A stretch of DNA of 21,152 nt from Longimicrobium sp. (GTDB lineage: Bacteria; Gemmatimonadota; Gemmatimonadetes; Longimicrobiales; Longimicrobiaceae): the NCBI GenBank assembly GCA_030446945.1, contig JAUJMI010000014.1:1-21152 (forward strand), written 5' to 3'. Made by a program: the position numbers and the translations under genes. Below the pieces are notes generated by a model that had not been told where the DNA came from, searched no databases, and saw nothing but the letters and a program-made list of their open reading frames with translations. Of the stretch, positions 6,283 through 16,762 are shown piece by piece; the stretch's first letter is position 1; each line of letters begins with the position of its first letter.

Positions 6283-6357
6283 CACACAGAGGGAACTGCA
6301 AGCCACGGAGGAACCTCTTTCGCCGTTCTCTCGGTGCCTCTGTGTCTCTGTGCGAGG
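6283..6357. repeat. CACAGAG-type palindromic repeat between PP2C and kinase genes
   Basis: CACACAGAGGGAAC at the left pairs imperfectly with GTTCTCTCGGTGCCTCTGTG near the right, and GTCTCTGTGCGAGG closes the element. It begins 11 bases past the stop codon of the minus-strand PP2C gene and occupies most of the 129-base gap before the kinase start. It belongs to the same family as the copies at 1232, 12545 and 13467. It could fold in the mRNA and lower kinase expression relative to PP2C. Confidence 0.75.
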
Positions 6358-8947: not shown

Positions 8948-8970
8948 CCCCCATCCCCCATCCCCGCCGT
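8948..8970. repeat. GGGGATG heptad array, solo copy at the helicase stop codon
   Basis: This 23-base stretch (CCCCCATCCCCCATCC, then CCGCCGT, on the plus strand) is an exact match, in opposite orientation, to 15168-15190 at the ligase start. It abuts the helicase stop codon (8971-8973) with no spacer. The array is the same heptad that bounds the four-helix-bundle gene at 15166-15567. Confidence 0.75.
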
Positions 8971-12544: not shown

Positions 12545-12639
12545 ACGAAGAGCATCACACCGAGGACACGGAGGGGAACACAAATCCGCAGAGCACCCGT
12601 CCCGCTGTTCTCTCCCTTTCCTCTGTGTCTCTGTGTATA
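12545..12639. repeat. CACAGAG-type palindromic repeat upstream of the methyltransferase gene
   Basis: Left part AGAGCATCACACCGAGG and GGAGGGGAACACAAATC, right part TTCTCTCCCTTTCCTCTGTG and TCTCTGTGTATAA. It begins about 24 bases after the stop codon of the minus-strand membrane protein gene (12664) and fills nearly all of the gap to the methyltransferase start. Orientation equals that of the copies at 1232 and 13467: minus-strand reading ends in GTGATGCTCTTC. Confidence 0.78.
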
Positions 12640-13570: not shown

Positions 13571-15169
13571 TCAACCCTCCAGTAGCCCGATGATCGTCTC
13601 CAGCGAGTCGGCTTCCTCGGGCTTCTTGTCGGTGCGCCAGCGGAGGATGCGGGGGAAGCGCACCGCCACCCCGCTCTTGTGGCGCGGCGAGCGCTGGATC
13701 CCCTCGAACGCCAGCTCGAACACCAGCTCCGGCTTCACCGTGCGCACCGGCCCGAACTTCTGCAGCGAGTTGCGCCGCACCCACGCGTCCACCTGGCGGA
13801 TCTCGGCGTCGGTGAGGCCGCTGTACGCCTTGGCAAAGGGCACCAGCTCGCCCCCCTTCCACACGGCAAAGGTGTAGTCGGTGTAGAGCGATGCGCGCCG
13901 CCCGTGCCCCCGCTGGGCGTACACCATCACGGCATCGAGCGTAAAGGGCTCCACCTTCCACTTCCACCAGTCACCGCGCCGCCGGCCGGTGCGGTAGGGC
14001 GAGTCCAACCGCTTGAGCATCAGCCCCTCCGATGCGCGGTCGCGGGCGCCGCGGTACGCCTCGAGCACCGCGTCCCAGCCGGCCGCGGGGACGATGGGTG
14101 AGAGAGGGATGCGGTCCGTGGCACCGGTGGGGAGCGAGGCGATGAGCTCCTCCAGGCGCGCGCGCCGCCAGCGCAGCGGCTCCTCGCGCACGTCTCGGCC
14201 CTCGAGCTCCAGCAGGTCGTACGCGAGGAGGACGACGGGGACCTCGGCCAGGATCTTGGCGCCGAGCACCTTGCGCCCGATGCGCCGCTGGAGCTGGGCG
14301 AAGGGGAGCGGTGCGTGCTCCTTCCACGGCAGGATCTCGCCGTCCAGCACCGTGCCGTCGGGGAGAAGGCCGGCGGCGCGCGCCAGCTCGGGGAAGCGCT
14401 CGGTGATCAGCTCCTCGCCGCGCGACCACAGGTACACGTTGTCGCGCCGGCGGATCATCTGCGCACGGATGCCGTCCCATTTCCACTCCGCCTGCCACTC
14501 GCCGGCGTCGCCCAGCGACTCGGGGCCGCCCTCCAGCGCGTAGGCCAGGTAGAAGGGGTAGGGGCGGCTGGCGTCCGCGTCGCTGGTGTCCGCGCCGAAG
14601 AGGCGGGTGTAGAACTCGGGCGTGGGGTCCCAGGCGCCCATCAGCCGGTGCGCCACCGTGGGCTCGTCCACCCCCCCGGCGCGGGCCAGCGCGCGCACCA
14701 CCAGGTTCTGCGACACGCCCACGCGGAAGGCGCCGGTGATCAGCTTGTTCCACACGTACGCCTCGGGGCCGCTGAGCTCCGCCCAGGCGCCCCGCATCGC
14801 CGCGCGCTGCCCGGCCTCGTCCTCGTGGCGCATGGGGAGGAGGCGTTCCTCCACCCAGCGGTGCAGCGGCAGGTCCTCGCGTTCCTCGGACGGTGGCGGA
14901 AGGAGGAGGGTGATGGTCTCCGCCAGATCGCCCACGGCCTCGTGGCACTCGGCGAACATCCACTCCGGCACGCCCGCCATCTCCATCGCCCACTCCGCCA
15001 GCCTGCGCGCCGGCACCAGCCGCTTGGGCCTCCGGCCGATCAGGAAGTGCACCGCCCACGCCGCGTCCTCCGGCGCCGCCGACGCGAAGTAGCGCGCCAG
15101 CGCGTCTACCTTTTCGCTGGTGCGCGTGGTCTCGTCCAGCTCGGCGTACAGATTCGCGAAAGACTTCAC
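13571..15169 (-). CDS. ATP-dependent DNA ligase of the ligase-associated DNA damage response cluster
   Basis: A 532-residue ATP-dependent ligase that seals nicks through a lysyl-AMP intermediate. It has the long N-terminal DNA-binding domain (FANLYAELDETTRTSEKVDA at the start), then the adenylation domain with nucleophile motif KWDG at 230-233 (motif I), WSRGEELITERFPE (motif Ia/III area), VLDGEILPW (motif III), EGLMLKRLDSPYR (motif IV) and WWKWKVEPFTLDAVMV (motif V). An OB domain follows. The start GTG at 15167-15169 begins exactly where homology begins and overlaps the stop of the preceding four-helix gene (GTGA). No Shine-Dalgarno is seen because the bases before it are a CCCCCAT array, so expression probably depends on coupling. 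A palindromic repeat follows 7 bases after the stop. Confidence 0.93.
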   Translation of the reverse strand: MKSFANLYAELDETTRTSEKVDALARYFASAAPEDAAWAVHFLIGRRPKRLVPARRLAEWAMEMAGVPEWMFAECHEAVGDLAETITLLLPPPSEEREDLPLHRWVEERLLPMRHEDEAGQRAAMRGAWAELSGPEAYVWNKLITGAFRVGVSQNLVVRALARAGGVDEPTVAHRLMGAWDPTPEFYTRLFGADTSDADASRPYPFYLAYALEGGPESLGDAGEWQAEWKWDGIRAQMIRRRDNVYLWSRGEELITERFPELARAAGLLPDGTVLDGEILPWKEHAPLPFAQLQRRIGRKVLGAKILAEVPVVLLAYDLLELEGRDVREEPLRWRRARLEELIASLPTGATDRIPLSPIVPAAGWDAVLEAYRGARDRASEGLMLKRLDSPYRTGRRRGDWWKWKVEPFTLDAVMVYAQRGHGRRASLYTDYTFAVWKGGELVPFAKAYSGLTDAEIRQVDAWVRRNSLQKFGPVRTVKPELVFELAFEGIQRSPRHKSGVAVRFPRILRWRTDKKPEEADSLETIIGLLEG

Positions 15170-15567
15170 GGCGGGGATGGGGGATGGGGGATGGGGGAAG
15201 AGGGAGGGGTGAGGAGCCGTGCGCGGAGTGCGCGGAGCATGCGGCCGATCTGGGCGAGGAGCGCCATCGCCGGCCTCGCCTCGTCGATCGGAAGGTACCC
15301 GAGCCGCATCGCGAGGAGCACAAAAGCCTCTGTTTCCGCGAGGGAACCGGACGCCACCGAAATGAAGCCGGCGTTGTCCCTCCGTGTGGACCGTGCATTC
15401 CCTTCCGCGATGTTCGCGGGTATGGACGCTGCCGCCCGACGCAGCTGGGCCGTCAATCCGAATCGCTCCTCGCGCGGAAAGCGGGCGGATGCTCGATAGA
15501 CCTCGACCACCAGGTCCATCGCCATCTGCCACACCCTCAGCTCACGGTAGAGAGAACGCTCAATCAC
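15166..15567 (-). CDS. Four-helix-bundle protein (S23/IVP family), inserted between exonuclease and ligase genes
   Basis: A 133-residue protein of the four-helix-bundle family first seen in 23S rRNA intervening sequences and related to Avd of diversity-generating retroelements. The core shows RELRVWQMAMDLVVEVYRAS, FPREERFGLTAQLRRAAASI, PANIAEGNA and LAETEAFVLLAMRLGYL, all typical. The last 15 residues (LTPPSSPIPHPPSPP) come from the CCCCCAT array, so the natural C-terminus is probably earlier. The start GTG at 15565-15567 overlaps the exonuclease 3' end by 8 bases; its stop overlaps the ligase start. No rRNA or reverse transcriptase is near. Function is unknown; bundle proteins of this type form pentamers and may bind nucleic acid. 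Confidence 0.85.
   Translation of the reverse strand: MIERSLYRELRVWQMAMDLVVEVYRASARFPREERFGLTAQLRRAAASIPANIAEGNARSTRRDNAGFISVASGSLAETEAFVLLAMRLGYLPIDEARPAMALLAQIGRMLRALRARLLTPPSSPIPHPPSPP
15168..15199. repeat. GGGGATG heptad array, left edge of the four-helix-bundle gene
   Basis: Three near-perfect units of GGGGATG on the plus strand from 15173, after ACGGC, followed by GGGGGAAGAGGGAGGGG. It encodes the C-terminal tail of the four-helix protein on the minus strand and touches the ligase start codon. The array is the inverted counterpart of the one at 15599-15627. Confidence 0.75.
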
Positions 15568-16600
15568 TCGTTGTCTCCTCCGCGGGCGAGTCGGCCCCCT
15601 CATCCCCCATCCCCAATCCCTCATCCCCTTCCCAGCGGCTCGCGACGGCCAGCGCCTGGATCCCGTGCTCGCGGAGCCAGCGCACCACCGGCTCGCGGTA
15701 GCCGTGCGTGACCCAGACGCACTCGGCGCCGGTCGCTTCGATCGAGGACAGCAGCGACGGCCAGTCCACGTGGTCGGAGAGGACGAAGCCCCGGTCCACG
15801 CCACGCCGCCTGCGCGCGCCCCGGATGCTCATCCACCCCGACGCGAACGCGGCGGAGACGGGGCCGAAGCGGCGCATCCACGGCGTCCCGTTTGCGGATG
15901 GCGGGGCGATGACCAGGGCGCGGCTCCAGTCGAAGCCCTTGGGCGCGCCCATCGGGTTGTCGGCGGGGGGGAGGGGGATGCCGCCGTCGCGGTAGTCCTG
16001 GTTCAGCTTGAGCGCCGCCCCGTGCGCGAAGATGGGGCCGATGGTCGGATCGACGCCTGCCAGCATCCGCTGCGCCTTGCCCAGCGCGTAGCCGAAGAGG
16101 AGCGACGCGCGCCCCGCCTCCTGGTTGCCGCGCCACCACGCGTCGATCTGCGCGAACACCTCCGCCTGCGGACGCCAGCGGTAGATGGGGAGGCCAAAGG
16201 TGCTCTCGGTGACGAAGGTGTGGCAGCGCACCGGCTCAAAGGGGGTGCAGGTGGGGTCCGGCTCCGTCTTGTAGTCGCCCGACACCACCCACACCTGGCC
16301 CCCGCGCTCCACCCGCACCTGCGCGGAGCCCAGGATGTGCCCGGCCGGGTGCAGCGACACCCTGACCCCGCGCACGTCGCGCACCTCGCCCCACTCCAGC
16401 GTGTCGATGCGCGCGTCGTGGCCGAGCCGAGTCCGCATCACGCGCTCCCCCTCGCGCGAGCCCAGGTAGCGCCGGCACCCCCAGCGCGCGTGGTCGCCGT
16501 GCGCGTGCGTGATCACCGCCCGGTCCACGGGGAGCCAGGGGTCGATGAAAAAGTCACCCGCTTCGCAGTACATCCCCCGGTCGGATACGCGCAGCAGCAT
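15560..16600 (-). CDS. Ligase-associated DNA damage response exonuclease (metallo-beta-lactamase/beta-CASP)
   Basis: A 346-residue nuclease of the SNM1/Pso2-like group, presumed to trim DNA ends before ligation. The metallo-beta-lactamase motif HAHGDH is at 32-37, preceded by FFIDPWLPVDRAVIT; GHILGSAQV, SGDYKTEPDPTC and the beta-CASP blocks TESTFGLPIYRW and LSDHVDWPSLL follow. The ATG at 16598-16600 was chosen because family members start close to the LLRVSDRGMYC stretch; an ATG at 16643-16645 would add 15 arginine-rich residues. The last 25 residues (EGDEGLGMGDEGADSP...) are encoded by the GGGGATG array and look foreign to the fold. The 3' end overlaps the four-helix gene by 8 bases, so this gene heads the exonuclease/four-helix/ligase unit. 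Confidence 0.92.
   Translation of the reverse strand: MLLRVSDRGMYCEAGDFFIDPWLPVDRAVITHAHGDHARWGCRRYLGSREGERVMRTRLGHDARIDTLEWGEVRDVRGVRVSLHPAGHILGSAQVRVERGGQVWVVSGDYKTEPDPTCTPFEPVRCHTFVTESTFGLPIYRWRPQAEVFAQIDAWWRGNQEAGRASLLFGYALGKAQRMLAGVDPTIGPIFAHGAALKLNQDYRDGGIPLPPADNPMGAPKGFDWSRALVIAPPSANGTPWMRRFGPVSAAFASGWMSIRGARRRRGVDRGFVLSDHVDWPSLLSSIEATGAECVWVTHGYREPVVRWLREHGIQALAVASRWEGDEGLGMGDEGADSPAEETTSD
15599..15627. repeat. GGGGATG heptad array, right edge of the four-helix-bundle gene
   Basis: On the minus strand it reads AGGGGATGAGGGATTGGGG, then ATGGGGGATGAGG. Units are less perfect than at 15173. Orientation is inverted relative to the left array, so the two enclose the four-helix gene as terminal inverted repeats. 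It is translated as the exonuclease C-terminal tail. Confidence 0.7.
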
Positions 16601-16709
16601 GGGCGTCGTGGCGAGAAGGCGGCATCGGCGCGAGCGGCGGCCCATGGCGCACGACGCGGGCCGAAGCTGCTTGCGGGTGGCTCCGCGGCCGTGCCGCGCC
16701 GGTAGGTCT

Positions 16710-16762
16710 CACGCAGAGACGCAGAGGCGCGGAGAGATGCTCATCTCCGGCCTCTGCGTTTT
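16710..16762 (+). repeat. CACGCAGAG-type palindromic repeat with T-tail
   Basis: TCTCACGCAGAGACGCAGAG leads into a hairpin GCAGAGGCGCGGAGA ... TCTCCGGCCTCTGC (16721-16757, one bulge), followed by GTTTTGG. It matches the outer arms of the composite repeat at 1194-1368. The TTTT after the stem makes it terminator-like on the plus strand. It lies upstream of the exonuclease gene and before a plus-strand pseudogene. Confidence 0.7.

Follow-up and report, generated by a model that had tools for sequence, protein, structure and literature searches.

We propose that the four-helix-bundle gene between an exonuclease gene and a ligase gene in the window (the whole stretch of DNA that was analysed, 21,152 nt) is probably one copy of a widespread S23 element, in which an S23 gene lies between matched inverted arrays of 7- or 8-nt units. 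Such cassettes suggest a type of mobile element that has received little recognition, and our best reading is a selfish element armed with hairpins. At the level of sequence, the support consists of matched arms, empty and occupied sites, a copy in rRNA, covariation of arm unit and protein, purifying selection and denser arrays.

The cassette and its site

The window comes from a genome (G000) of 3.7 Mb in 526 contigs, 86% complete, whose nearest named match is the Gemmatimonadetes assembly AVDCRST_MAG68, with 91% identity in the exonuclease. The gene order on the minus strand is exonuclease, four-helix gene, ligase, with these features:

15166..15567, minus strand: four-helix gene (S23/IVP; PF05635, TIGR02436), GTG at 15567-15565, stop at 15168-15166
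15560..16645, minus strand: host gene for the ligase-associated exonuclease (TIGR04122), extended through the 5' arm
13571..15169, minus strand: host gene for the ATP-dependent DNA ligase (TIGR04120), its GTG inside the GTGA of the four-helix stop
15173..15628, minus strand: S23 element, 456 bp from arm end to arm end, matched-arm score 23
15597..15628, minus strand: 5' arm (S23 sense), GGGGATG-type array forming the exonuclease tail
15173..15199, minus strand: 3' arm (S23 sense), CATCCCC-type array forming the four-helix protein tail

The four-helix protein belongs to PF05635 (E 1.2e-34, 119.1 bits; cut-off 33.8) and TIGR02436 (109.8 bits; cut-off 24), and its neighbours match TIGR04122 (exonuclease, 485.5 bits, cut-off 325; stop at 15562-15560) and TIGR04120 (ligase, 643.6 bits, cut-off 400; GTG start at 15169-15167), which confirms the gene placement of the initial annotation. 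S23 is the sole family match inside the element, and no transposase gene was found there. The left array, read on the plus strand from 15173, is GGGGATG three times and then GGGGAAG; the right array, at about 15597-15628, is inverted relative to it. The oppositely oriented arrays reported earlier at both gene edges are thus present, at coordinates that were good to about 2 bases, and both are indeed translated, one as the exonuclease tail and the other as the four-helix tail. The left array does not touch the ligase GTG, as had been thought, and ends 3 bases short of it. Both overlaps that had been suggested to keep the operon readable were found: 8 bases between the exonuclease and the four-helix gene, and 4 bases, the common GTGA, between the four-helix stop and the ligase start.

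The window contains 22 copies of GGGGATG where 4.8 would be expected, a count that none of 100 shuffles reached; likewise, 400 kb of relatives held 26 period-7/8 arrays versus 0 after codon shuffling. The window has a second CATCCCC array at 8948-8970, whose edge, ACGGC(A/G)GGGATG, is common to the studied 3' arm and to G000 contigs C323 (L009), C427 (L017) and C83 (L080); the stop codon of a neighbouring gene often follows such edges in this genome. The window also has octad arrays like ACGCAGAG / CTCTGTGT at 1199-1220, 6329-6352, 12621-12636 and 16711-16735; in G003 and G005, octads resembling these are paired in inverted orientation.

We compared the junction with 15 other exonuclease loci that also contain the ligase. 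Neither the four-helix gene nor a GGGGATG array is at the junction in any of the 15. In other genera the two genes overlap or are at most 200 nt apart in 8 of 9 loci (520 nt in G014). In the six congeners 271-1415 nt separate the two genes, and this gap contains other things: G005 and G006 have what we read from the sequence as a lipoprotein-like gene, G004 has a collagen-like gene that also occurs in L021, and G001, G003 and G008 have repeats. The expectation that relatives lacking the gene would also lack its arrays therefore stands for GGGGATG itself but not for arrays in general, as the gaps of G003 and G006 contain an octad array of another unit and G001 has, as judged by eye, a heptad-like run next to the ligase start. 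Another repeat, resembling GAATTCGCTGCAACAACCACACGAAGTCCGCC, occurs at the congener junctions L050 (G008), L049 and L052, with an inverted partner in G008. At the window locus, the sequence GGGAAGGGGA is already present at the conserved end of the exonuclease, which is suggestive of a repeat unit copied from the target site.

Matched arms and their covariation with the S23 protein

Within the family, S23 is found in 14 of 21 genomes. We assembled 117 loci confirmed by the S23 HMM, from Gemmatimonadota, cyanobacterial plasmids and one Azospirillum plasmid. The family contributed 31 loci from 34 listed places (two places were one broken gene and two were left out), the phylum 27 at one per genome plus 40 picked by hand from the listed E-value-ranked table with their flanks unseen, and the plasmids came from 19 of 39 records. 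The arm test kept 113 loci, after exclusion of L100, L101 and L105 for short flanks and of one plasmid duplicate. Arms were called matched at a score of at least 15, and control ORFs were scored likewise.

Matched inverted arms were found at 92 of the 113 loci (family 23/28, phylum 56/67, plasmids 13/18), and at none of 180 control ORFs, whose maximum was 13. When arms were swapped between different loci, 41 of 2825 pairs reached 15, and a locus's own right arm beat 25 random others at 94 of the 113. Among the 92 matched loci the best period was 7 in 66, 8 in 23 and another in 3, and the 5' arm in the S23 sense was mainly purine in 73. The S23 elements here have a median length of 523 nt. Of the 31 family loci read, 30 were testable and 25 scored at least 15; L101 and L105 had matched arms in a smaller test (scores 31 and 22). 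The remaining 21 of the 113 loci lacked matched arms at this threshold; among the 19 plasmid loci, L218 and L219 had no arms (scores 8 and 10). Six loci (L163, L182, L188, L191, L193 and L200) have long plain inverted repeats of roughly 30-85 bp in place of clear arrays; that plain-repeat loci are rRNA insertions was rejected, given no Rfam match at 20 loci. On cyanobacterial plasmids, which are AT-rich and show the same matched-arm pattern, S23 genes also lie between cas6 and cas4 (two records), cas10 and cmr3, and nrdB and nrdA (L204, L213, L205, L208).

Genome G000 itself has four S23 loci, two of them (C117 and C258) with a broken or incomplete frame, and these carry inverted arrays of different units: C198 scores 25 and C258 15, with a weak array pair at C117 (only 12). 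Other four-helix genes do carry inverted arrays, then, as the cassette reading predicted, and since this and the junction comparison both favour that reading, and inverted arms recur at most other S23 loci, we regard it as supported.

The arm unit varies among loci but is alike in both arms of one locus. Neither this variation nor the agreement between unit and protein clade could have been seen by the earlier reader from the window alone. The family S23 tree groups by unit into AGTGC-type, GGGRAW-type (the window's) and TATCGG-type; only 3 of its 27 inner branches are strongly supported, that of the AGTGC group among them. Since S23 loci are not independent, with 44 same-site pairs, those pairs were left out of a Mantel test on 91 loci with period-7/8 arms, including a few hardly periodic ones such as L163 and L188; protein identity was correlated with unit similarity (r 0.248; maximum of 2000 permutations 0.091), shared lineage descent being only partly removed. 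The S23 protein of L148 (Gemmatimonadota) is 67-69% identical to those of the cyanobacterial loci L210 and L214, and the units are similar. At a site upstream of a DHS-like gene, the unit changes among genomes and both arms agree within most of them. In 22 same-site pairs S23 dN/dS was 0.06-0.30, with dS often above 1; S23 here is under purifying selection.

Occupied sites, scattered arrays and rival explanations

The pdhA 3' end was readable in 14 genomes. It runs directly into pdhB in seven (G000, G002, G005 on contig C103, G009, G011, G015 and G020), is followed by S23 in five (G001, G003, G004, G006 and G008), and meets a non-coding array pair in G010 and a plain spacer in G017. Besides its empty junction on C103, G005 has an S23 copy beside pdhB on C211, which may reflect two copies or mixed strains. 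In G008, a 13-bp direct repeat flanks the S23 element at pdhA-pdhB. A general target-site duplication was looked for and not found: direct repeats of at least 6 nt outside the arms occurred at 14 of 93 loci versus 10.6% of mismatched pairs, not clearly above chance. From these insertion patterns we infer that the cassette moves; transposition itself was not seen, and the element is without a recombinase.

Away from S23 loci, we counted 71 arrays in 869 kb of eight genomes with S23 and 4 in 558 kb of six without, a density about 11 times higher in the former, in a contrast that is confounded by phylogeny. Every S23-positive genome exceeded every S23-negative one (Mann-Whitney p 0.001, the genomes not being independent), and density contrasts also occur within genera (G002 versus its congeners; G019 versus G017). 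Of the 9 arrays in G016, 6 match the flanks of that genome's own S23 loci, and no array matches the S23 flanks of seven other genomes; such a preference was absent outside G016 (for example, 2/13 in G009 and 0/5 in G017).

The arms could instead be regulatory or RNA-processing stems made by the host, with junctions gaining heptad hairpins by slippage and S23 genes as passengers. This we consider unlikely, given that the S23 protein and the arm unit vary together across different sites and that arrays are scarce in the six genomes without S23. In its favour, S23-positive genomes often have array pairs with no S23 gene (17 in 713 kb), other arrays sit at the same junctions, such as clpX in G007 and pdhA in G010, and heptads without S23 have been described (PMC4692102, PMC4679880); the units of the clpX and pdhA pairs resemble those of each genome's own S23 loci. 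That low-complexity, G-rich DNA collects in intergenic gaps and only seems paired is very improbable: these GC-rich genomes do have many simple repeats, but arms from other S23 loci rarely match and the AT-rich plasmids show matched arms too.

It is also improbable, a little more so than host-made stems, that S23 works with a reverse transcriptase as Avd does, the enzyme moving the element in RNA form. S23 resembles the Avd of diversity-generating retroelements in its four-helix-bundle fold family and in weak profile matches, but its score with the Avd profile NF033474 (35.6 bits, cut-off 80) is far under the cut-off and places it outside Avd, as does that with the bAvd profile (23.7 bits, cut-off 40), and no reverse transcriptase was found in G000, at 86% completeness. 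RVT_1 is somewhat commoner with S23, matching in 9 of 14 S23-positive versus 2 of 7 S23-negative family genomes; we set this partner aside, though, because 5 of the 14 have no match, some of which incomplete assemblies could hide, and G001 (98% complete, three S23 matches) is one without.

A proposed mechanism and its wider meaning

Based on these results, we return to the hairpin-armed S23 element and suggest a plausible course of events. An S23 element would have inserted at the exonuclease-ligase junction. Since neither arm brings a stop codon into the translated frame, the operon remains readable: the exonuclease continues through the 5' arm and ends a short way into the four-helix gene, which in turn continues through the 3' arm and stops on the GTGA that starts the ligase. 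Folding prediction places the two arms together in a terminal stem of the transcript (z -4.59 for the window). Such a stem, as would be expected from complementary arms, was predicted for all 37 of 45 loci drawn that had matched arms and a suitable length, the window included. By analogy with rRNA, RNase III may trim the arm stem. S23 is probably a pentamer: Avd is a pentamer, and the five chains in each of the PDB relatives 2gsc and 2rld fit this. The conserved S23 protein may recognise its arm unit, a suggestion we make tentatively, and would aid in trans the persistence or spread of element copies and of short non-coding array pairs. As for how arms become or stay matched, our guess is template switching between arms, or slippage followed by repair.

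In L220, on an Azospirillum lipoferum plasmid, an S23 ORF flanked by matching heptad arms (score 21) splits the LSU rRNA (RF02541, 1024.9 bits). Since this S23 with arms lies inside 23S rRNA, rRNA intervening sequences (IVSs) look like the same element, as far as sequence can tell. An IVS is recognised by an S23 ORF between complementary, stem-forming ends and by its location in a 23S rRNA gene; the window copy has the former (the stem being predicted) and L220 the latter, but the window copy lies between the TIGR04122 and TIGR04120 genes, and no Rfam match was found in L002. According to PMC4990558, the Coxiella burnetii IVS likewise has an S23 ORF and complementary ends that form a 28-bp terminal stem, is cleaved by RNase III in vitro, carries tandem GACAGAT heptads upstream of S23 and is similar in total length (about 430 nt, against our median of 523 nt). 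It differs in its position in rRNA helix 45 rather than between protein genes, and in that its heptads are reported as direct repeats on one side, not as matched arms. The same paper cites an older idea that the IVS ORF serves mobility and argues that S23 is not made in Coxiella in vivo, unlike the purifying selection on S23 here.

Heptameric repeats are also known genome-wide, namely GGGNATC in Xanthomonas and Nostoc (PMC4692102) and TAACTGA in Beggiatoaceae (PMC4679880). Like the S23 arms, they are 7-nt intergenic arrays, and those of Xanthomonas include inverted pairs (70 and 75 cases); the Nostoc repeats, in contrast, form few pairs, and one inverted repeat is given for the Beggiatoa genome. 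In Xanthomonas, most heptad positions are shared between two species, and the repeats are not associated with mobile elements (PMC4692102); the accessible text of the two reports makes no mention of an S23 gene. Our literature search, most subscription journals being outside its scope, found no S23 genes tied to inverted heptad arrays outside rRNA.

REPIN/RAYT and MITE/transposase pairs are short non-coding inverted units possibly dependent on a protein encoded elsewhere, and in this they resemble the S23-less array pairs. They differ from the S23 element, which has no transposase and whose ends are tandem arrays with a unit that varies between copies. It is conceivable, at somewhat under even chances, that S23 elements form a separate class of mobile element, one that has no known recombinase, in which S23 reads a clade-specific 7-8-nt unit, maintains the matched end arrays and drives short non-coding array hairpins across the genome in trans. 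If that is true, the heptameric repeats of bacteria and the intervening sequences of rRNA would both be expressions of a single system. One answer would then be possible for two old puzzles, the nature of the S23 rRNA intervening sequences and the origin of bacterial heptameric repeats, both of which this reading makes testable, and it would explain why S23 genes are found inside cas, nrd, pdh and ligase operons.
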